Below, piece after piece: positions 50,037 to 64,000 of a stretch of 64,000 bases of DNA. Under the pieces are notes generated by a model, which did no database searches, was not told the DNA's origin, and saw nothing but the letters and a program-made list of their open reading frames with translations. Each line of letters opens with the position of its first letter. Position 1 is the first letter of the stretch. Both the position numbers and the translations under genes were made by a program. The DNA is from Pseudoalteromonas sp. '520P1 No. 423' (GTDB lineage: Bacteria; Pseudomonadota; Gammaproteobacteria; Enterobacterales; Alteromonadaceae): positions 3,348,001 through 3,412,000 of the forward strand of contig NZ_BBZB01000001.1 of the NCBI RefSeq assembly GCF_001269985.1, read 5' to 3'.

Positions 50037-50901
50037 ATGAATAAAAATGTATTAATACTCGCTTTTTGCCAAGGTTTAATTACCACTGGTAACATTATGC
50101 TAGTAACAGTGACTGCACTCATTGGCCAGCAACTCAGCCCTAATGAAGGGTGGATCACCCTACCCGTTGCGACACAAAGTTTAGGTTTATTATTTGCAAC
50201 TATTCCAGCCTCCTTACTAATGGCAAAACAGGCAGAAAAAATGGCTTTAGCTTAGTTAATGCAATCGGCATCGTGGGTATTTTAATAGCGGTTTATGCAT
50301 TAGAAAAAAGTTCATTTAGCTTATTTTTTTGCCACCCTTTATCGCTTTGCAGCGATTGAGGCTGATCCAAAAAATCCAAGTCGTGTAATCTCATTTATAA
50401 TGGCAAGTGGCATAATCTCAGCCATTTTAGGTCGAAACTTAGCGATTTAGGTCGAGAAATTATTACCTTCGCTTAATTTTAGCAATACATTTATAGCCCT
50501 TGCCTGCCTTTATAATTTGGCTATTTTTATATTGCAGTTTGTCTCTTCTGCTAAAGTACAACAAGCACAAAATGAAGACCCTAAAAGGGATTTAAAAACG
50601 ATATTAATACAACCAAAATTTATCATAGCTGTTACTGCTGCAATGATTAGTTTTACTTTAATGAGCCTATGGATGACAGCAACCCCCCTTGCCATGCACC
50701 GCCATGGTTTTGACTTCAAAGACTCCGCTTTTATTATTCAATGGCACGTACTAGCTATGTTTGTACCTTCACTTTTTACAGGCAAACTCAAGAGAAATTT
50801 GGTTCAATTAATATGATATTTATAGGCGCGGTTTTAATTGGCTTATGCATTATTATAAAAGTACCTTTGATTTCATATGTATTTCAATGCACTTATCAAA
50901 T
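50037..50901 (+). pseudogene. MFS transporter remnant with several frameshifts
   Basis: The first part is open from ATG 50037 (MNKNVLILAFCQGLITTGNI, TLPVATQSLGLLFATIPASL) but the frame breaks near 50240 in an A run. It continues in another frame as LVNAIGIVGILIAVYALEKS, then again as YRFAAIEADPKNPSRVISFI, then after further breaks as LKTILIQPKFIIAVTAAMIS and DSAFIIQWHVLAMFVPSLFT. A last fragment FIGAVLIGLCIIIKVPLISY breaks off before the expected end. At least four frame changes, internal stops and a missing C-terminal quarter show a dead major facilitator gene. Substrate unknown. Confidence 0.8.
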
Positions 50902-51431
50902 ATGACAGGTATTAAGTTTAGCACTCAAAATGAAATCATAAAATGTGAAAGATCTGGTCATGTATTATATGTAGAAGATCATTTATCTGTTGCAAATAAG
51001 ACAATGGAAAGTCTTTGATCCCAATTTTAGCGCTATCGGGAAAACTCAATTCAACACAACGCATTGATGCATTAAAAAAAGGTGCAAACGACTTCATCAC
51101 TAAACCTGTGATCTAAGCAGAGCTAGCAGCAAGAGTAAATAACCTTGTTTTAGCCCATCATTTATATTTGCAAGTAAAACACCAGCAACATGCATTAGAA
51201 CAAGTCGCTATGACAGATCATCTAACTGGCTTATATAACCGCCACTTTTTAATGCCATTTTTAGAAAAAGCCCTGGTGCTCGCAAAACGACAAAGTCATG
51301 ACGTCAGCTTAGTTATGATTGATTTAGATAACTTTAAACCTATAAACGATCAACTTGGACATGATGCAGGAGATGAATTACTGATCGCTGTCGCCAATAT
51401 ATTGCAAGCTGAAACACGTGTAGAAAACTAA
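50902..51431 (+). pseudogene. REC-GGDEF response regulator remnant
   Basis: An ATG at 50902 opens a frame with HVLYVEDHLSVANKTMESL that stops at 51018. Another frame picks up the second half of a receiver (PILALSGKLN, ALKKGANDFITKPV) and hits a TAA at a place where a Glu codon is expected. It then gives ELAARVNNLVLAHHLYLQV and the start of a GGDEF domain (MTDHLTGLYNRHFLMPFLEK, DLDNFKPINDQLGHDAGDEL). The middle of the receiver with the acceptor Asp and everything from the GGDEF motif onward are missing. It is fused directly to the MFS remnant, so a deletion probably joined the two. Confidence 0.8.
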
Positions 51432-54689: not shown

Positions 54690-55646
54690 ATGGCTTTATC
54701 ATTAAAACAGAAAATTCAAGACCCAAAGCAAGGTGTATATCTGATCGGTACTACTCCACCAAAAATGGGCACTGATAAAGCACAACTAGAAACCATAGCT
54801 AATAAACTATTAGATCGTTTACATGAAATTGAATACGATGGCGTGATCATTTACGACATCCAAGATGAAAGTAGTCGAACAGCTGTACCACGCCCATTCC
54901 CGTTTAAACAAACAATTGATCCGCGTGAATATAGCCAACTTATTAGCAAATTATCTGAATTAGACGTGATTACATACAAAAGTGTGGCTCAACGTGATGA
55001 AAATGAGTTTAACGCTTGGTTAGATGAAACCGCAGAAAAATTCAAACTTAAAAATTTAGTATTAGTAGGTAGTCCATCTTCTAGTGGAGATATCAAACTG
55101 AGCCTACCGAATGCGTATAAAACATTAGCAAACCACAAAAGTAAAGTATTTTTAGGTGGCGTTACAATTGCCGAACGTCACGCAAGCAAACGCAATGAAC
55201 ATGACCGTTTATTAGAAAAAATCGATCAAGGTTGTGAGTTTTTTATTTCTCAAGCAGTTTACAATGCACAAGAAACAATTGATTTAATCACGAGTTATTC
55301 AAGAAGCTGTCGTCATAAAGGGATCACGCCAAAACGTATTATTCTAACTTTCACGCCATGTGGTGGTGAAAAGACGTTAGATTTCATGAAGTGGTTAGGC
55401 ATTTCAGTGCCTGAAGCTACAAAGTGGCGTATATTAGATTCAAGTGATTCATTAAATGAATCTATTAGGATCTGTCGTGACAATCTAAACCAAATTTTAC
55501 AAAGCTGCGCACACTTAGATGTGCCATTAGGTTTAAACATAGAAAGTTTAACAAATCGTAAAGAAGAGATAGATGCCTCTATTAATCTTTACCGCTTATT
55601 AAAAGCAACGATGGAATTAAACCTAGCTGAAAAACAAATCGCTTAA
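54690..55646 (+). CDS. MTHFR-fold protein of unclear specificity
   Basis: A 318-residue protein resembling the methylenetetrahydrofolate reductase superfamily: an N-terminal GVYLIGTTPPKMGTDKAQLE, YDGVIIYDIQDESSRTAVPR, LVLVGSPSSSGDIKLSLPNA, GGVTIAERHASKRNEHDRLL and GCEFFISQAVYNAQETIDLI, which correspond to the MetF barrel strands. It lacks the typical MetF start and spacing, so it may not be the metabolic MetF. No methionine gene is adjacent. Annotated homologues are often simply called methylenetetrahydrofolate reductase. Function uncertain. Confidence 0.7.
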   Translation: MALSLKQKIQDPKQGVYLIGTTPPKMGTDKAQLETIANKLLDRLHEIEYDGVIIYDIQDESSRTAVPRPFPFKQTIDPREYSQLISKLSELDVITYKSVAQRDENEFNAWLDETAEKFKLKNLVLVGSPSSSGDIKLSLPNAYKTLANHKSKVFLGGVTIAERHASKRNEHDRLLEKIDQGCEFFISQAVYNAQETIDLITSYSRSCRHKGITPKRIILTFTPCGGEKTLDFMKWLGISVPEATKWRILDSSDSLNESIRICRDNLNQILQSCAHLDVPLGLNIESLTNRKEEIDASINLYRLLKATMELNLAEKQIA

Positions 55647-55790: not shown

Positions 55791-56639
55791 GTGCGTCAAT
55801 TTAAGTTTATTTCATTAATCATTTTATTAACCGTTTCTCTAGCTGCCCAAGCTAAGAATATTGAAATTGGTCAAACCCATCATTTAGATTCTCAAATATT
55901 AAAACAAAACCGCCCATTCTCTGTTTATTTACCTCCGTCATATAATAAAAAACCAAATAAAACCTACCCTGTGATTTACGCATTAGACGGCGATTTAACC
56001 CGTTTTAAAGGTTTAGTGGGTATGGTTGAGTCGTTAAGCTCTTATAACTTAGAACAACAAATTGAGGAGCATATTATTGTTGCACTCCCTAATGTCGGTT
56101 CTCGAGAGCAATATCTCACACCTAGCATTGCCGAATTTACATTTGAGGGGAAGTTATTAGATGATTTAGGTAAGGTAGGTGATGCTAATAAACTGATCGC
56201 CTTCATTAATAAAGAACTATTTCCCTATATGGCAAATAACTTTCGTGTAAATAATAAGCGCACATTAATTGGTGAATCTTTTGCAGGCTTATTTACTGCC
56301 CATGTATTATTGAGTCAACCTGAATTATTTACCCACTACTTGATCACAGATGCGACTTATATTTGGCATGATAATTACCTAAATCGTGTTTATTCTGAAA
56401 AAGATTTAGAAAACGTATCAGCTAAAATATATTTTGCATTAGCTAATAACTCACATCTTGGAAAAATTGGTAAAACAAATTATCAATGGGGTTTAACATT
56501 TGCCAACAAAGTAAAAAATACTAAAAACTTAACGCCAAGTGTAAAAGTAGATTACTTTGAACAAGAAAGGCATGGAACTGTTGGTATGTTAGCTTGGTAC
56601 CATGGTTTAAGGTTTTTACACCACAAAGATAACTATTAA
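55791..56639 (+). CDS. Exported esterase of the alpha/beta-hydrolase (esterase D/IroE-like) family
   Basis: A 282-residue protein with a signal peptide (MRQFKFISLIILLTVSLAAQ, cut after AQA). It starts at a GTG with a strong AAGGAAG ribosome site. The hydrolase core has FSVYLPPSY, YPVIYALDGDLTRFKGLVGM, the nucleophile in LIGESFAGLFTAHVLL and the catalytic His in EQERHGTVGMLAWYHG. Relatives cleave siderophore or other esters in the periplasm. It lies upstream of the lanthipeptide precursor on the same strand, 179 bases away, but nothing in the sequence ties it to that cluster. Confidence 0.8.
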   Translation: MRQFKFISLIILLTVSLAAQAKNIEIGQTHHLDSQILKQNRPFSVYLPPSYNKKPNKTYPVIYALDGDLTRFKGLVGMVESLSSYNLEQQIEEHIIVALPNVGSREQYLTPSIAEFTFEGKLLDDLGKVGDANKLIAFINKELFPYMANNFRVNNKRTLIGESFAGLFTAHVLLSQPELFTHYLITDATYIWHDNYLNRVYSEKDLENVSAKIYFALANNSHLGKIGKTNYQWGLTFANKVKNTKNLTPSVKVDYFEQERHGTVGMLAWYHGLRFLHHKDNY

Positions 56640-56724: not shown

Positions 56725-56818
56725 TTCAGTTTAATAAATGTATATTTATGCGTCAAATTAGTTTACTTAACAGGTACAGCGTATAAGTATATAAACTCAT
56801 TTTAAAAAGGAAAAACAA

Positions 56819-56985
56819 ATGAAACTTAAATTAAATAAGAAAAATATAAAAATTTGTCTCATGATGAAAAATCAATACCTCTAGATATGACACCTAAAAT
56901 TGGTGGTGGTGTGAATTTATACACTAGCCCTAAAGTTTGTGCTACAAGCCCGATTATTTGCGATACAACTGGATACTGCTTTTAA
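56819..56985 (+). CDS. Class I lanthipeptide precursor, frame broken by one base
   Basis: The ATG at 56819 has a strong ribosome site (AAAAAGGA about 9 bases upstream) and starts a leader MKLKLNKKNIK. In the given sequence that frame ends at a TAG (56882-56884). In the -1 frame the same run continues as NLSHDEKSIPLDMTPKIGGG and a 24-residue core (VNLY, TSPKVC, A, TSPIIC, D, TTGYCF) to a TAA at 56985. One more A in the A5 run (about 56848-56852), or a -1 slip on AAA-A, joins leader and core into 55 residues. The LKLNKKNIKNLS leader resembles LanB-recognised leaders of Bacteroidota class I lanthipeptides, and GGG suits the C39 peptidase of the facing transporter. Three Cys and six Ser/Thr allow three (methyl)lanthionine rings. 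An internal ATG at 56887 is possible but has no ribosome site and would lack the leader. Confidence 0.8.
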
Positions 56986-57017
56986 TAATCATTGATTAGT
57001 AGTTGAAAGATAATTAT

Positions 57018-57054
57018 AAAATAAACGCGATAAATAATTTAACGCGTTTATTTT
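57018..57054. terminator. Bidirectional terminator between precursor and transporter genes
   Basis: AAAATAAACGCG and CGCGTTTATTTT are perfect 12-bp arms around a 13-base loop, between the convergent precursor and ABC-transporter genes. A/T-rich outer arms give a T tract in both directions. Confidence 0.85.
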
Positions 57055-57096
57055 ATGTAAACTATTATTAATACAATATTTTTACTATCTGGTTTA

Positions 57097-59226
57097 TCAA
57101 GCTTTCTCAACAACCTTTGATATTTCATTCCCTTTTATTAGTTTTATTTCTCTATCAGCTGAAGCTATCGTCTCTTTTCTATGCGCTATGATCACACGGG
57201 TTATATCTAACTGTTTTATTGCCTGATTGATATCTGATTCAAGAGTTGTATCTAAATGACTAGTAGCTTCATCCATAAATAATATTTTTGGTTGTTTATA
57301 TAAAGCTCTTGCTAAGATTAACCGTTGTTTTTGGCCACCAGATAAACTAGACCCCATATCGCCAATTAAACTATCGTACCCCATCGGCATTTTACTTATA
57401 TCATCATGTATCGCGGCTAATTCAGCACAATAGACTACACGCTCCATATCAATTGGTGTATCAAAAAAAGCAATATTATCAGCAACAGAGCCTGATAATA
57501 ACTCATCATTTTGCATTACCGCAGCTATTTGTTGACGATATTGACTAGGTCCTAATTGATTTAGTGGAATATCATCAATGAGGATATCACCGCTATTATG
57601 ATGATTTAAACCTAACATCAATTTTAATAAAGTAGATTTCCCACAACCTGAAGGACCGGTAATCGCAACTGATTCACCAGGGCTTATTTCCATGCTAAGG
57701 TCATCAATAACATTAGGAGTGGCGTCGCTGTATTTAAACGACACGTTCTTTAGTAATATTTTGCCTTTAATATTATGCGGCTTAATATTGTCACCTAGCA
57801 ACGGCTCCTTCTCTGTTAAAGCGATATCAGCTAAACGTTCAAAATGTAAGCTCAGCATTTTAAATTCAATTAATTTTTCAATAAGTTTCGCTGTTTTATC
57901 CATAAACTGCTGTTTATAAGCCATAAAGGCAAATAGCATCCCTGTACTAAACCCTCCTTGAATTACTAAAGACGCGGCAAGATAGATAACTATTATATTT
58001 TCCAAACCAAATAATAATCGATTTATCCCAGCATATGATATTTGAAAGTGTCCCAGACGAATGTTTTGATTTATCGCATTGGCGTACCGATTTTGCCATT
58101 GCCCTTCACGTTTAACTTCAGAACCAAATAATTTTATGGTCTGGATCGCCCTGACTGTTTCCATAAAGTTACTATGTTCCTCGGCTCGAGCTATAATCTC
58201 CTGTTCGGTTATATTTCGAAAAGGTCGATACATTAATATTCTTAAAACCGCATAAAAAGTGACTGCGATGACTACAACTGCAGAAAGCAAAGGACTGTAA
58301 AAGAAAATCATTACAAGGGTAATAATTGCCATCAAGCCATCGATTATGGTTTCTATTACTCCTGTTGTCAGTAACTCTTTAACTTGCTGTAATGATCCAA
58401 ACCGTGAAACAACATCACCCATATGTCGTTTCTCAAAATAATTTAGCGGCAAACGAACCAGATGATGAAACAAATTTGCACCCAACTGGATATTCATCAA
58501 GCTACCAAAATGTAATAAAGTAAATCCCCTGAGACTATTGGTAACAATTTCAAAGATAAGCACTAAACCAAAGCCAATACCCAATACAGTGAGTAAGGAG
58601 GTATCTGCAGTTAAAATAACATCATCAATGACTAGTTGAATATAATAAGGTGTTGCTAAAGCAAAAACTTGCAGTAACAGTGATAAAACAAAAATCAAAA
58701 TAAGAGAACTTTTAAGTCCTGTTATTTTTTGCCAAAAATCTGAAAACTTTAAGCTTGGCGGTTTTTCTTTAAGTGTAAACTCTTTTGTTGGTGTCAGCTC
58801 AAGAGCTATGCCAGTAAAGTGATTTGAAGCTTCAGCTAAACTTAAACGTTTTTCGCCACTTGCGGGATCATATATCACAATAGACTTTGCATTTGCCGAT
58901 TTTAAAACCACAAAATGATTCAAATCCCAATGTAAAATACAAGGTGTTTGCAAATCTTCAAGATCATCTAATTCAATTCGTAAAGGTCTTGAAGTTAACG
59001 ATAACTTCTCTGAAAACTGCATTATATCAAGTAACGTAGCGCCTTCTAGTGATAGACTGAATTGCTGACGCATGGATAATAAATCACTTTGATAACCATG
59101 ATATCCCGCAACCATAGCTAAACACGCTAATCCGCATTCAGTTGCCTCAGATTGTAAAATTAAAGGCAGTTTCTTGCGGTGCCAAAATTGTAATTTACTC
59201 GCTGGATTTGTGTCATTTAAAGACAT
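57097..59226 (-). CDS. Lanthipeptide ABC exporter with N-terminal C39 peptidase
   Basis: About 709 residues from the ATG at 59226 (MSLNDTNPASKLQFWHRKKL), which has an AAGAG ribosome site; an ATG 75 bases upstream would overlap the HlyD gene and add a hydrophobic piece. The C39 domain (about 15-150) has Gln25 and Cys31 in LQSEATECGLACLAMVAGYH, and His and Asp in HWDLNHFVVLK and IYDPASG, so it should cut after a double glycine. Six membrane helices follow (about 175-450). The ATPase has GPSGCGKST, LSGGQKQR and ILFMDEATSHLD. It would remove the leader and export the modified peptide with the HlyD protein. Fourth gene of the lanCB-hlyD operon. Confidence 0.93.
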   Translation of the reverse strand: MSLNDTNPASKLQFWHRKKLPLILQSEATECGLACLAMVAGYHGYQSDLLSMRQQFSLSLEGATLLDIMQFSEKLSLTSRPLRIELDDLEDLQTPCILHWDLNHFVVLKSANAKSIVIYDPASGEKRLSLAEASNHFTGIALELTPTKEFTLKEKPPSLKFSDFWQKITGLKSSLILIFVLSLLLQVFALATPYYIQLVIDDVILTADTSLLTVLGIGFGLVLIFEIVTNSLRGFTLLHFGSLMNIQLGANLFHHLVRLPLNYFEKRHMGDVVSRFGSLQQVKELLTTGVIETIIDGLMAIITLVMIFFYSPLLSAVVVIAVTFYAVLRILMYRPFRNITEQEIIARAEEHSNFMETVRAIQTIKLFGSEVKREGQWQNRYANAINQNIRLGHFQISYAGINRLLFGLENIIVIYLAASLVIQGGFSTGMLFAFMAYKQQFMDKTAKLIEKLIEFKMLSLHFERLADIALTEKEPLLGDNIKPHNIKGKILLKNVSFKYSDATPNVIDDLSMEISPGESVAITGPSGCGKSTLLKLMLGLNHHNSGDILIDDIPLNQLGPSQYRQQIAAVMQNDELLSGSVADNIAFFDTPIDMERVVYCAELAAIHDDISKMPMGYDSLIGDMGSSLSGGQKQRLILARALYKQPKILFMDEATSHLDTTLESDINQAIKQLDITRVIIAHRKETIASADREIKLIKGNEISKVVEKA

Positions 59227-59266
59227 TATAACGACTCTTTTTATTTTTATACTTATGAAAATTAAC

Positions 59267-60511
59267 TTACAACTGGCCTTGAATACTAAAAACAGGATCA
59301 AATAACCAACGTACTAAAGAGCGCTGCTCAATCACAATATCAGCATCTAACCTCATACCCGAGCGAAGTGGAATATTTTTTCCATAAGCCTGGATATCTT
59401 GAGTTTTTAATGAAACAACAACACGATATGAAGGTAAAGTGATTAATCCTGGTATATCCGTTTCATCGGGTAAAATAACATTTGCACTTATTTGTGAGAT
59501 CACACCTTCATATATACCATATTTTTGATAAGGAAATGCGTGATATCTTAACCTTGTTTTTTGGTCTATTTCAATAAAACCAAATGCTGAAGTTGGAATA
59601 TAAATAACAGCCTGCATCTTGCTGTTTTCAGGTAGAATATTTAATAAATTTTGGTTTAAATTGACTGACTTGCCCGTTTTTGCAATCAAACCTGTCACAA
59701 TACCATTCGCTGGCGATCTTAATTCACTTAACCTTTGCTGTTGCGTTGTGAGTAATTGAGACTCTAATTGTGCTATTTGACTTTCCAATAAATTATTTTC
59801 TTTTGCCTGGTTTATTGGTAATTGAGATAGCTGATTATTAAATTGTTCCCTTTGATTTTGTATTGATAATCGTTCTGAATCAATTCTAGCAACTTGTTGA
59901 TTTAAAGATAATAAACTGTCTTGTTGTTTTTTAAGTTCGAGATCAGATATATAACCCGTTCCAGCAAGTTTACTTACTTGATCAACGATTTCTTTATTTA
60001 TAACAACACGCTCATTAAAAATATCACTTTGTAATTCGAGTTGAGCTAACCGTTTAACTGCATCTTTGTAATTATTCTTCAACGCTTGTATTTCAAAAGT
60101 ATGTTTAAGCCTTTGTTTTGTTAATTGCGATTTTAAAATATTTATTTGAAATTCATATTGCTTAATAATGGATTGATTTAACTCTAATCCCTTAACGCCA
60201 TGTTTTTCAGATTTTATACGTAATAAAGCATCACCTTTTTTAACTTTTTGGCCTTCTCTTACTAAAAGCTCTGTAATAACACCTATTTGGGGTGCTTTTA
60301 GCTTTAGCAGACCAGCATCTGGTTGCAAAATACCTGATACCGTTTCTTTTCGGGTATAACTGCCTAAAGTTAAAAATACGATACTAATGATAACAATCGT
60401 TAATATTAATAAAGTCAAATACTTAAATACCGGAGGTTGTACTAAGCTCACAACCCCAGATAATCGGTATTTTCTTTTATTTATTACTTCTTGTCTGAAT
60501 AACTGTTCCAT
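59267..60511 (-). CDS. HlyD-family membrane fusion protein
   Basis: A 414-residue adaptor with one N-terminal membrane helix (LLILTIVIISIVFLTLGSYT). A lipoyl half-motif (LLKLKAPQIGVITELLVREG QKVKKGDALLRI region) is followed by a long coiled-coil hairpin (about 110-255), a second lipoyl half (ELRSPANGIVTGLIAKTGKS) and a C-terminal beta barrel (GMRLDADIVIEQRSLVRWLF). It connects the C39 ABC exporter to an outer-membrane channel such as TolC, which is not in the window. It sits between the LanB and ABC genes on the same strand, with the ABC gene 40 bases downstream. Confidence 0.9.
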   Translation of the reverse strand: MEQLFRQEVINKRKYRLSGVVSLVQPPVFKYLTLLILTIVIISIVFLTLGSYTRKETVSGILQPDAGLLKLKAPQIGVITELLVREGQKVKKGDALLRIKSEKHGVKGLELNQSIIKQYEFQINILKSQLTKQRLKHTFEIQALKNNYKDAVKRLAQLELQSDIFNERVVINKEIVDQVSKLAGTGYISDLELKKQQDSLLSLNQQVARIDSERLSIQNQREQFNNQLSQLPINQAKENNLLESQIAQLESQLLTTQQQRLSELRSPANGIVTGLIAKTGKSVNLNQNLLNILPENSKMQAVIYIPTSAFGFIEIDQKTRLRYHAFPYQKYGIYEGVISQISANVILPDETDIPGLITLPSYRVVVSLKTQDIQAYGKNIPLRSGMRLDADIVIEQRSLVRWLFDPVFSIQGQL

Positions 60512-60594
60512 TTAACCTAGCTTTATCTTAAATCGCTCAATTAATAACATAATTATCATAATGTAACTCTTAACTGAGTTACATTATGTAAAAT

Positions 60595-63500
60595 TTAATT
60601 TCTCTTTCCTGCCGAAAAATAATATCGTCTAAGAAAATCGTGCATCACTAACTCATGTTCACGACCATATGCTTTAAACATACGGTTATGATGCATGTGT
60701 AATAAAGAGCTCATTAAAGTATCTTTACTACATTTAATACCTTCATCTGATGATATCAATTGATTAAGACGTTTGATAACTGGAGATACTTGTATTTTCC
60801 AGTTACCTAATATATCAAAAATCTGCTGTTGTTCTTGTGTTGATTCGGTAAGAGATTGCTTTTGTATTTTCGAAAAATCCGAAAACAATTGGCTTTGTAT
60901 TTTTTTATACTTGTCTCCTAGCTGTTTTCTTAACTGACTTGATTCATTAAATTCTTTGCCAAATCCAGTCCTCAGATCACTAATTAAATTCAATTTTTCT
61001 TTAGCGTCAAATTTAAACTCATTTAGTAACTGATCTGTCATTAATAATGCAACTCTGCATCGTACATCATCATTAAATTCAGACTCTAATTGGCTTGTTG
61101 CAATCACTAGCTGACTATCAGCCATAAACAAGTCTTCAACCAATGCCATTGCATTTGGACCACCATAACGCTCAACTTCCCTTTCGTATGTAAATAATTC
61201 TACTTTGTGTATTTCATTATTTTCAACCATAGGGTCAAGTAAGGCATTCAGTCTTGGTAAAAGTTGTCCGTATAACTCACTTGGTTCACCAAAAAAACGT
61301 ATTCTTAAGTGCCAATCGGGATCGCCATAACGAATAAAAAACCATTTTTTAAATAATGAAGATGATTGCTCTATTTCAGGTAATAAATGTTCAGCTAATA
61401 AACTCTCGACTGCTGTATTTCCTGTATATATTTTTAAACTTAACCATTGTGAACCGGGTGAAAAACGACGTTTTATTGGTGTTGCTAAAATATTTTTTTG
61501 AGGATCATCACTAAAATGATTGTGTACTTTTGCACCAGTATTCAAAAAAGGGATAATAAGTTCATTAGTATAACTCAGCCCTTCATGTGATTTAACAGGT
61601 GTCGAAAATTGTGTAGTAAGCACCTCTTTTAATTCAACAATTTCTTGTCCTTTAGTTTCTCCCAACAATATTTCAAGCATTAAAGGGTTTAGTAAATGAA
61701 TTTGTAAAACATTATCACTCATTGCATAGGAAATATGCTCATCTAATTGATATATATCTTTAAGTTCATGCCATTTTTGAATATCAATTCCATCACTTTC
61801 TATTACAGAAGCATTAAACAATCCTTCAATTTCTTTACGAGGAATGCGCCATTTCTTTTCAGATAAAATCAAATTATCTAACATTATTCTAGGTACAAAA
61901 CACACATTAACTTGACTGCTAGGTAAAGTAAATCTAGGTGCTGAAGCATCTTGGTGCTGCAACATACTTAAAAACTTATAAGCACTTAAACTACGTGCAG
62001 AATAATTATGAGCGGAAGATAAACGTGGAATAATTTGCTTGTTTAGACGCTTAGACCAAAGTTTAACTAAACCCGATTCAACCCATACATGTAAATCACT
62101 AATCTGAATTTGATATTCACTAGATAAGCTTGAGTCAGCTAAAAATACTATTTCATACTCTCTTAAATGAGGTCTGGCAATTACATTACCAGGTCTACCT
62201 TCTGGCATATGCACTATTTCAGCAAAAATGACATCACTTGAATGGTTACTTTCAGCTTCCAAATGTGTAATAACACTTCGTTTTAAATCATTGTTTAAAT
62301 GACAAAAACGCCCCAATAAATTAGCCGCAGATGGTCCATAACAGCCGTTGAATTGAACGATTGAAGAACCCGTATTTTGATCTTCATATAAAGATATCAT
62401 AGCAGCAAAAGATATCGGTAAGTCCACTTCAGATAAAGGCTTATCAAGATGTTTTAATAGCGCTTTAGAACTAAGTTTAATAACTGATTTATTTCTATTT
62501 TTTGGTGTACTTATTTCTTGTGTTATCAAGTTATCTAATAATGAAATTTGGTTAGCTCCACCTTGAACAGAAGAAGCTGTTCTCAAATGTAAACCAGCAA
62601 GTAATGGCGCTTCATAACCAGACTCATTTGAAAAACTGATACCTGACTCATCATCAAGTAATATATCCAAAGGTACAAATTGACCTTCAAACCGAGAATT
62701 AAATTTATTTATAAAATCTCTGAATGAATTTTGTTTGGAAATAGATAAAGCTTTAATTAATTTAATTTGTTTTAATAAGCTCGATATTTGATTTTGGCTA
62801 AGTTCACACTGTGAATAGGCGCGGTATACATCTAATTGAAAAAGTTTATTTTCTTGTGTTTTTATGGGAAGTTGGTTTAAATACTCAAAAACTTTTTTGT
62901 AATCTGAAACACACCTATCAACTTTCTTATCTAATTGTTCTAATTGAAATAAAGAGGTCGCCAAATGATCAGCAGTTTCACTTTGTCCTATTTTATTTAA
63001 AGACTCTACCAAAACCGCATCAGGAGCCTTTCCTGTTAAAGGTAAGGGAATATCAGCCAATAAAACAGATTCATCAATTAACTGTTGAATATAATCAATT
63101 ACATCTGACCTATCTGTTTCATTTTCATGATTATCTTGTTCATCAGAAAAACGCTGTAAAAAAACATCTACTAATTGATTAAAACTGAGCCCTTTTTTAG
63201 CTACTGATAATATAAAGTCAAAATACTCATCTCTTTCAATAGCACTTAATCTATACAGCCTAGAGTCTTCGGATTGATAAGCTTCAATATACCTGCAATG
63301 CTCAGCAACAAAATAATGACTAGTATTTGGATAGTATTTTAATTGTTCACTATGCGCATTGTGTTTTAAAAAATATTCTTTAATAGCACTTAAATAAAAA
63401 ATATCTAATCTTGTTTTACGACTATCTTCAGATAAATCTCTACTAATGATGCGTGTTTCGTCGGTTATTTCTCCCATGCTAATACCGGAAAATAACCCAA

Positions 63501-63816
63501 AAGGTGTTGGTCGAGAACACATTCTAATCATATACTTCAGCAAAGCTAATTCTAATTTTTTAGCCTGTTTTATATCTGATTTTTTAACAATCCCATTCTT
63601 TTTCTCTTTTTTATTTTTATAGAATTGTTCTATTCGTTCTAATAAAGAAGGACTCGCTAAATATAGGGCTTCTTGTATCTGTGGATCCATTATCCAATTT
63701 TCAAGAACTTGTTGCGTTTGCTTTTTGCTTGTACCTAAAGACTTTAAAATATCTATAGGTAACCTTGGTGTGCGGATCACAAAAAAATTTTGGTGCTTTA
63801 TACTAGATTTTGACAT
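60595..63816 (-). CDS. LanB-type lanthipeptide dehydratase (full length)
   Basis: A 1073-residue class I dehydratase. The N-terminal glutamylation domain (about 1-750) starts with NFFVIRTPRLPIDILKSLGT and has the landmark MIRMCSRPTPFGLFSGISMG, FNGCYGPSAANLLGRFCHLN and AEIVHMPEGRPGNVIARPHL. The C-terminal elimination domain (SpaB_C type, about 795-1065) has GSQWLSLKIYTGNTAVESLL, FFIRYGDPDWHLRIRFFG and EREVERYGGPNAMAL, and ends LRRYYFSAGKRN. Both halves are present in one chain, so it should glutamylate and then eliminate water from Ser/Thr of the precursor using Glu-tRNA. It lies 20 bases after the LanC gene and 83 bases before the HlyD gene. Confidence 0.93.
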   Translation of the reverse strand: MSKSSIKHQNFFVIRTPRLPIDILKSLGTSKKQTQQVLENWIMDPQIQEALYLASPSLLERIEQFYKNKKEKKNGIVKKSDIKQAKKLELALLKYMIRMCSRPTPFGLFSGISMGEITDETRIISRDLSEDSRKTRLDIFYLSAIKEYFLKHNAHSEQLKYYPNTSHYFVAEHCRYIEAYQSEDSRLYRLSAIERDEYFDFILSVAKKGLSFNQLVDVFLQRFSDEQDNHENETDRSDVIDYIQQLIDESVLLADIPLPLTGKAPDAVLVESLNKIGQSETADHLATSLFQLEQLDKKVDRCVSDYKKVFEYLNQLPIKTQENKLFQLDVYRAYSQCELSQNQISSLLKQIKLIKALSISKQNSFRDFINKFNSRFEGQFVPLDILLDDESGISFSNESGYEAPLLAGLHLRTASSVQGGANQISLLDNLITQEISTPKNRNKSVIKLSSKALLKHLDKPLSEVDLPISFAAMISLYEDQNTGSSIVQFNGCYGPSAANLLGRFCHLNNDLKRSVITHLEAESNHSSDVIFAEIVHMPEGRPGNVIARPHLREYEIVFLADSSLSSEYQIQISDLHVWVESGLVKLWSKRLNKQIIPRLSSAHNYSARSLSAYKFLSMLQHQDASAPRFTLPSSQVNVCFVPRIMLDNLILSEKKWRIPRKEIEGLFNASVIESDGIDIQKWHELKDIYQLDEHISYAMSDNVLQIHLLNPLMLEILLGETKGQEIVELKEVLTTQFSTPVKSHEGLSYTNELIIPFLNTGAKVHNHFSDDPQKNILATPIKRRFSPGSQWLSLKIYTGNTAVESLLAEHLLPEIEQSSSLFKKWFFIRYGDPDWHLRIRFFGEPSELYGQLLPRLNALLDPMVENNEIHKVELFTYEREVERYGGPNAMALVEDLFMADSQLVIATSQLESEFNDDVRCRVALLMTDQLLNEFKFDAKEKLNLISDLRTGFGKEFNESSQLRKQLGDKYKKIQSQLFSDFSKIQKQSLTESTQEQQQIFDILGNWKIQVSPVIKRLNQLISSDEGIKCSKDTLMSSLLHMHHNRMFKAYGREHELVMHDFLRRYYFSAGKRN

Positions 63817-63836
63817 TTATTCTTAAACCTTTTCAT

Positions 63837-64000
63837 CTACGCCATCAACAAGCTATCAGCCCAATCGGCGTCTTCACCTAAAGCTGATAATAAACATAAA
63901 CCAATCCCACCATAACCCATTAGAAAACCAGTTTCTTCTTCATATTGATTAGTTAACCCAGAATACATAAATAAACCATGCAACTCATGGTTTTTGTATC
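63837..64000 (-). CDS. LanC-like lanthionine cyclase (C-terminal fragment)
   Basis: Only the last 53 codons and a TAG are inside the window; the gene continues beyond the right edge. The fragment reads YKNHELHGLFMYSGL, TNQYEEETGFLMGYGGIGLC, LLSALGEDADWADSLLMA. The GFLMGYGGIGL block followed by an acidic D-W-D segment is typical for the end of LanC cyclases and LanM cyclase domains. The zinc ligands (Cys-Cys-His) lie upstream and cannot be checked here. Position directly before LanB supports the call. It would add Cys thiols to dehydrated residues of the precursor. Confidence 0.8.
   Translation of the reverse strand, partial: YKNHELHGLFMYSGLTNQYEEETGFLMGYGGIGLCLLSALGEDADWADSLLMA

Follow-up and report, generated by a model that had tools for sequence, protein, structure and literature searches.

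The right-hand end of the window carries a locus for class I lanthipeptide biosynthesis with C39/HlyD export, an assignment that is well supported by its predicted proteins; by the window we mean the whole stretch of 64,000 nucleotides that was analyzed (positions 3,348,001 to 3,412,000 of contig NZ_BBZB01000001.1 of Pseudoalteromonas sp. '520P1 No. 423', or G000:C1:3348001-3412000 in our numbering). We consider it likely that in the genus Pseudoalteromonas a single set of the dehydratase LanB and the cyclase LanC (LanBC) serves leader-bearing precursor genes throughout the genome. The machine in the window is ordinary but complete; the larger result is the scattered precursors of its relatives, which lie outside the window, and the host genome itself illustrates the scattered system poorly. 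Gene content, the conservation of catalytic and zinc residues, leader conservation, the dispersal of the precursor genes and their co-occurrence with LanB were all observed.

The chemical steps, a promiscuous LanBC, removal of the leader, export and any bioactivity are inferred from sequence, as follows. LanB would bind the conserved leader of a precursor (KLxLxKK..IKxL...) and dehydrate Ser and Thr residues of the core by way of glutamyl-tRNA, and LanC, a zinc enzyme, would close thioether rings using Cys. The C39 domain of the exporter would cut behind the terminal GG (or GA) of the leader, and an ABC-HlyD-TolC channel would export the core. The enzymes would recognize the leader rather than the core, so that one LanBC set could serve leader-bearing genes anywhere in the genome; in many Pseudoalteromonas, dozens of unlinked precursor genes with unrelated cores would thus be substrates of the same LanBC.

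The original prediction, made from the letters of the window, had described the C-terminus of LanC, a full two-domain LanB, an HlyD adaptor and a C39-ABC exporter in one leftward operon, and Pfam searches and coordinates confirmed this. On the minus strand the order of transcription is LanC, LanB, HlyD and C39-ABC:

63837-64000, minus strand: LanC cyclase, C-terminal part, running off the window edge
60595-63816, minus strand: LanB, lantibiotic dehydratase of full length, its glutamylation and elimination domains matched by the Pfam N and C domains
59267-60511, minus strand: HlyD-family periplasmic adaptor (Pfam HlyD_3, E 1.8e-15)
57097-59301, minus strand: C39 peptidase-ABC exporter of the LanT/PCAT type (Pfam Peptidase_C39, ABC_membrane and ABC_tran)

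LanB matches Lant_dehydr_N over residues 44-717 (E 4.5e-118) and Lant_dehydr_C over residues 791-1066 (E 2.9e-62), and its relatives of solved structure include NisB and entry 5ehk, 'Lantibiotic dehydratase'. Residues R98, R102, T104, D138, N164, R829, E880, R883 and H1040 are invariant in an alignment of 22 sequences and agree with the displayed part of the NisB alignment; we take their catalytic roles to be those known from work on NisB. Grouping of this LanB with an unrelated system did not occur. Extension of the contig to the right, as had been proposed, yielded the complete lanC (L002:10837-12054, equivalent to 63837-65054 of the window), which encodes 405 residues and matches PF05147 with E 8.2e-36 in the genome search. 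Its motifs are AHG at 204-206, WCYG at 266 and LCHG at 315, and the zinc ligands looked for in the full LanC are present as Cys267, Cys316 and His317, whose ligand roles are presumed. The CHG motif is found in the window LanC and in 54 of 55 parsed members of its cluster; the pattern search found none in the other member. LanB and LanC gave no match against a defence library.

The exporter matches Peptidase_C39 (E 9.7e-35), ABC_membrane (E 4.6e-41) and ABC_tran (E 4e-32), and its best relatives of solved structure are named ABC-type bacteriocin transporter (E 1.5e-103). The mechanically called open reading frame has 734 residues and opens at TTG; translation more likely begins at the ATG at 59226 (residue 26), which would yield 709 residues, close to the 706 of the relative in NBT06-2. 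Q50, C56, H129 and D145, in the numbering of the 734-residue frame, sit at the C39 motifs and presumably have the roles usual for them. The adaptor also matches NCBIfam type_I_hlyD (E 1.1e-41, under the cut-off of that family). In the host genome (5.39 Mb, two contigs), the family search found one LanB and one LanC, and two TolC-type proteins scored over the curated cut-off, both unlinked to the operon. The C39 motifs, the HlyD of the operon and the TolC of the genome are thus the parts for export of a peptide with a GG leader and are predicted to work jointly. With a complete LanB and LanC, zinc ligands, C39 motifs and TolC-type proteins at hand, the class I route with C39-ABC, HlyD and probable TolC that had been proposed for this DNA is well supported.

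LanB was found in 51 of the 108 Pseudoalteromonas genomes that made up the genus set (a single copy in 49, two in G072 and G110), showing that the system is common in the genus, and LanC scored above its cut-off in 50 of these 51. One genome without LanB, G069, has a weak LanC match under the cut-off. A protein search, in which only the 7993 candidates sharing the most words were scored, gave at least 280 relatives of LanB at E <= 0.001, and of 351 candidate stretches in named genomes 312 held up, the best 80 of them being kept as 78 loci. A sample across the order held a convincing LanB in 5 of 394 genomes; one more match was a 69-residue piece (E 9e-4).

A leader profile of 31 positions, A3, was built from 15 leaders, most of them found by pattern in LanB loci, with precursor A of the window excluded. 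At a threshold of E 0.01, A3 matched in 51 of the 108 genus genomes, exactly the 51 that bear LanB, and no match at this threshold was found in the 57 without LanB. The number of matches per genome ranged from 1 to at least 72 (the latter in G017; G079 had at least 66), with a median of at least 20 and a total of at least 1257; at least 39 genomes had 10 or more, and at least 8 had 50 or more. In the order sample, too, the five LanB genomes were the five with leader matches (full-length ones, and in the host genome precursors B and C and a piece of A, described below); two other leader matches were 13-residue pieces within frames of about 700 residues.

Two genomes, G100 (two contigs, searched alone) and G033 (P. 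denitrificans), were analyzed peptide by peptide. The 62 matches of G100 are spread over both of its contigs and form 43 places separated by more than 10 kb; the closest to LanB lies some 28.8 kb from the end of that gene. G033 has 44 matches at 33 places on 28 contigs, and one of the matches adjoins LanC. Combined, this gives 106 peptides at 76 separate places. The leader ends in GG or GA in 105 of the 106, and the 105 cores are all distinct. Cys together with Ser or Thr occurs in 98 of the 105; Cys makes up 11.4% and 11.5% of core residues in the two genomes, against 0.3% and 0% of leader residues, and Ser plus Thr about 18-19% of core residues. Met stands at the matched start in 96 of 106 peptides, and a Shine-Dalgarno-like 4-mer lies upstream of 92 of these 96, a raw count without a control for chance.

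Among leaders with Met and with GG or GA at positions 30-31, mean identity was 0.71 in G033 (36 leaders) and 0.42 in G100 (34 leaders); over the first 12 residues of the core it was 0.067 in both. The codon entropy of the leaders was 0.63, 0.39 and 1.16 at the three codon positions in G033 and 1.19, 0.98 and 1.73 in G100. Leader codons thus vary most at the third position, suggesting that leaders are selected as protein; core codons vary about equally at all three, and the cores appear close to random relative to one another. Around 99 precursor loci (about 1.5 kb on each side) there was no common neighbour family: the largest occurred at 8 loci, LanC lay beside one, and at one there was a distant match to ABC (32%). 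Shared neighbours of these 99 loci, such as mobile elements or local enzymes, were rejected on the basis of this recurrence count, no scan of the neighbours against families having been made.

When 18 precursors were searched against a database, 122 proteins were obtained. Among the best 120 of these, the names given are hypothetical or uncharacterized, the exceptions being a UniRef 'Class I lanthipeptide' and a status line. Thalassomonas recurs among the same 120 and may be a second genus with dispersed precursors. A plasmid collection searched with one dispersed precursor gave no match. In P. luteoviolacea and a relative, tandem peptides with the same leader and no Cys were noted (L012:2175-3006, also L015, L032 and L045), most of them with the core motif DTSVT; these might be dehydrated, and rings of their own by thioether are impossible for them.

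At the threshold of E 0.01 the host genome has only three leader matches, two of them outside the window:

56819-56884, plus strand: precursor A, leader piece (ATG, 21 codons, stop)
56854-56985, plus strand: precursor A, remaining leader ending in GGG and a Cys-bearing core, in a frame different from that of the ATG
L002:12338-12610, equivalent to 65338-65610 of the window, beyond LanC: precursor B, intact, 90 residues
C1:491526-491687: precursor C, leader-profile match whose core has no Cys

A short precursor gene facing the operon, with a core of 24 residues, had been read from the window. A plus-strand precursor sequence does exist there, as does the 24-residue stretch (3 Cys, 4 Thr and 2 Ser), but the frame is broken: the ATG at 56819 opens only 21 codons, and the core is untranslatable from it as the sequence stands. 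Two partial, overlapping matches of the leader profile, each in its own frame, cover A: leader residues 1-12 fall at 56819-56854 (E 0.55) and residues 11-31 at 56848-56910 (E 7.2e-8). The core frame has no start ahead of the TTG at 56854. The core piece is 79% identical over 98% of its length to an intact metagenomic protein of 55 residues, P0241. Because P0241 is intact and the last 18 residues of the two are identical, precursor A belongs to a real family; its break may be a recent mutation or an assembly error.

Precursor B, the further precursor gained by extending the contig, has a 31-residue leader ending in AGG and a core of 59 residues, among them 7 Cys, 12 Thr and 1 Ser. The calculated monoisotopic mass of this core is 6037.62 Da when unmodified and would be 5911.55 Da with 7 dehydrations. 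By its sequence B is a better candidate for the working precursor than the broken A, for which that role had been claimed, and among the leader matches found in the host genome it is the sole intact substrate that bears Cys. Precursor C has near it another pair of HlyD and C39-ABC genes as well as a winged-helix (Trans_reg_C) regulator, and no LanB. This locus (L226:3961-11198, on G000:C1) also encodes a 113-residue protein, and its Trans_reg_C regulator is large; in Colwellia sp. TT2012 (L051) a similar set adjoins LanB. In NBT06-2 a single intact precursor stands at the same chromosomal place as the window cluster, between esterase relics and LanC; its genome has three leader matches in all, one of them partial.

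Several observations weigh against a single LanBC set with many precursors. Since one of the three host matches is broken and one lacks Cys, the idea of many precursors rests on relatives. Seven of the 105 cores have no Cys, and 10 of the 106 matches begin without Met. The three sampled LanB genomes outside the genus have just one or two leaders each, and G031 has LanB and one leader with no LanC match. At least seven LanB genomes (G062, G094, G032, G093, G035, G122 and G100) also hold a LanC-like match in a frame of 890-931 residues, the size of class II LanM; these frames are probably LanM, present together with LanB in some precursor-rich genomes, and partial matches occur in G070, G026 and G073. 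A further LanC-sized match occurs in G100, G003, G072 and G131. Such LanM-sized or extra LanC-sized proteins could serve part of the precursors in their genomes. In the extreme case LanM would modify the dispersed precursors of the precursor-rich genomes, and LanBC only the one adjoining it. We hold this to be very unlikely, as G033 (44 matches), G017 and G079, all rich in precursors, have a single LanC match, beside LanB and not LanM-sized. The Cys-less cores, and the LanB-free C39-ABC/HlyD locus that adjoins the Cys-less precursor C, would also fit an account in which the window locus is a conventional lantibiotic cluster with one product, and the dispersed peptides of relatives are left unmodified, being double-glycine peptides (microcin-like, or signals) that simply make use of C39 exporters. 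Unmodified peptides need not track LanB, whereas the leader matches fall exactly in the LanB genomes, and the cores are rich in Cys and in Ser and Thr; this account is therefore improbable, and a shared LanBC set is the reading we retain.

For the host strain itself, two further explanations concern the state of the cluster. Precursor A might work after all, its break being an assembly error or being bridged by slippage during expression. The break sits in an A-rich run, and the core piece is undecayed, with its last 18 residues those of intact P0241. Against this, the four long genes of the cluster alongside are intact, and the other broken stretch that we noticed (50037-51431, see below) reflects real deletions relative to NBT06-2, so stray sequencing insertions or deletions look rare, although not every gene was checked; moreover, the first start of the core frame, the TTG at 56854, omits the first part of the leader. 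A working precursor A is thus quite conceivable, with the chances somewhat against it. It is rather unlikely that the cluster is decaying in this strain, as might be proposed from the broken precursor A, an esterase relic on the opposite side of the operon, decayed neighbours and a small repertoire (three leader matches, against the genus median of at least 20). The frames of LanB, LanC, HlyD, C39-ABC and precursor B are all uninterrupted, catalytic residues are conserved, and NBT06-2, whose precursor is intact, likewise has just three matches.

By description, the locus belongs with the marine gammaproteobacterial class I lanthipeptides (pci, pseudorosins and thalassomonasins). Pseudorosins A-C are class I products of P. 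flavipulchra S16 with the dehydratase PsfB, as cited in PMC12819058. The pci cluster is that of P. citrea DSM 8771, and PciA was modified in E. coli without an extra tRNA plasmid, as the excerpted paper states (PMC9993889). Pseudorosins and pci share the genus and class of the window locus by description; the LanB of P. flavipulchra (L024, strain BAA-314) is 55% identical to the window LanB. Thalassomonasins A and B of Thalassomonas actiniarum are, judging from a citation title, lanthipeptides of a marine proteobacterium. The LanB relatives of Thalassomonas are 44% identical to that of the window, and peptides annotated as hypothetical in this genus share the leader; T. viridans accounts for four, which have distinct locus tags. 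Class I systems of this kind had been thought few in proteobacteria; their occurrence in 51 of 108 Pseudoalteromonas genomes and the systems expressed from P. flavipulchra, P. citrea and Thalassomonas, as far as the excerpted literature describes them, contradict this.

The leader fits a motif described for class I precursors of Bacteroidetes with C39 proteases, namely LxLxKx5L with GG sites (Walker 2020, PMC7268733, excerpts). To the NCBIfam leader family NF038158 (lant_leader_L1b), 3 of 10 peptides match weakly, all below its curated cut-off (best E 0.0013, 18.8 of 27 bits); neither precursor B nor the piece of A matched this family. The same 2020 survey (PMC7268733), in its excerpts, searched up to seven genes from a LanC protein and says that distant prochlorosin genes thereby escaped; at this range, dispersed precursors would be missed.

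By analogy, the scattered system appears to be for class I what the prochlorosins are for class II. Prochlorosins and synechococsins of marine picocyanobacteria are made by one enzyme set (ProcM, SyncM) from scattered precursors with a fixed leader and a free core, as excerpts of one paper describe (PMC10783134). A single synthetase set with many dispersed precursors is common to both at the genus level, the host genome having its three matches. In contrast, the prochlorosin enzyme is a class II LanM, and here LanB and LanC are used, the only LanC-like match of the host being a stand-alone LanC; the zinc motif of the prochlorosin cyclase is CCG, and that of the window LanC is CHG; and the prochlorosin leader is of the Nif11 type, whereas the short LxLxKx5L leader has no Pfam match (nine leader-bearing peptides gave none up to E 1, Nif11 included). 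The class I enzymes, the CHG motif and the non-Nif11 leader mean that this system is not a member of the prochlorosin family. On balance we favour the view that Pseudoalteromonas, and probably Thalassomonas, have a combinatorial class I system in which one LanB and LanC modify dispersed precursors, up to about 70 in number and nearly random in their cores, and which arose independently of the class II prochlorosins, and that in the clade of the window (P. denitrificans, NBT06-2 and the host) part of the precursors may share an AGGTAC element.

To our knowledge, the scattered-precursor pattern was previously known only from cyanobacteria that use a different enzyme. No account of dispersed class I precursors was found in the open-licence literature of PubMed Central, a scope that most subscription papers fall outside, so priority for dispersed precursors is not established. 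If one LanBC pair accepts dozens of unrelated cores, it would be a natural library generator built on the enzyme class of nisin in Gram-negative marine bacteria, and lanthipeptides would have arrived at genome-wide dispersal of precursors more than once in the sea. One system of the genus, pci, has been expressed in E. coli according to the excerpts of PMC9993889. A comparison of precursor-rich and precursor-poor sister species could then address the purpose of such a library. There is a blind spot as well: surveys near enzyme genes miss most such precursors, which in databases are mostly hypothetical proteins.

The neighbourhood of the operon was also inspected, and two features adjoin precursor A:

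55791-56639, plus strand: putative esterase (Pfam Esterase, E 1.4e-21)
56772-56778, plus strand: AGGTACA element, 47 bases ahead of the precursor A ATG

The 3' part of the esterase gene is repeated beyond precursor B in a decayed form (L002:12748-12992, 83% identical), and units of a precursor and an esterase may have been copied or relocated around the operon. The esterase is probably not a pathway gene and was rejected as one: none of the other loci compared has a member of its cluster, and NBT06-2 has only relics of it. Further left, at 50037-51431, a transporter-like and a GGDEF-like gene lie in pieces with deletions; NBT06-2 keeps both open (L005:16857-18137 and from 18286). An indel-prone assembly is thought an unlikely cause of this breakage, because the comparison with NBT06-2 reveals true deletions. 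A gene with a sub-threshold match to methylenetetrahydrofolate reductase (window 54690-55646, L005:12643-13614 and L037:6557-7513) flanks the cluster in the three nearest species, the side of the operon varying.

AGGTACA also occurs 34 bases before precursor B and 63 before the NBT06-2 precursor. The sequences TAGGTAC and AGGTACA were chosen by eye from the G033 list, in which they stood out as G+C-rich, and then counted as AGGTAC. A scan for promoters and terminators found fewer sites than in shuffled sequences, and the counts of 7-mers shared upstream of precursors were inside the range of shuffles. In G100, AGGTAC was not enriched (6 sites against 3.0 expected). In P. denitrificans (G033), 17 sites lie before 13 of 39 precursor genes, against 2.6 expected. 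By eye, several copies of AGGTAC have a GTTAC-like partner 10-12 bases away, similar to an OmpR-type direct repeat.

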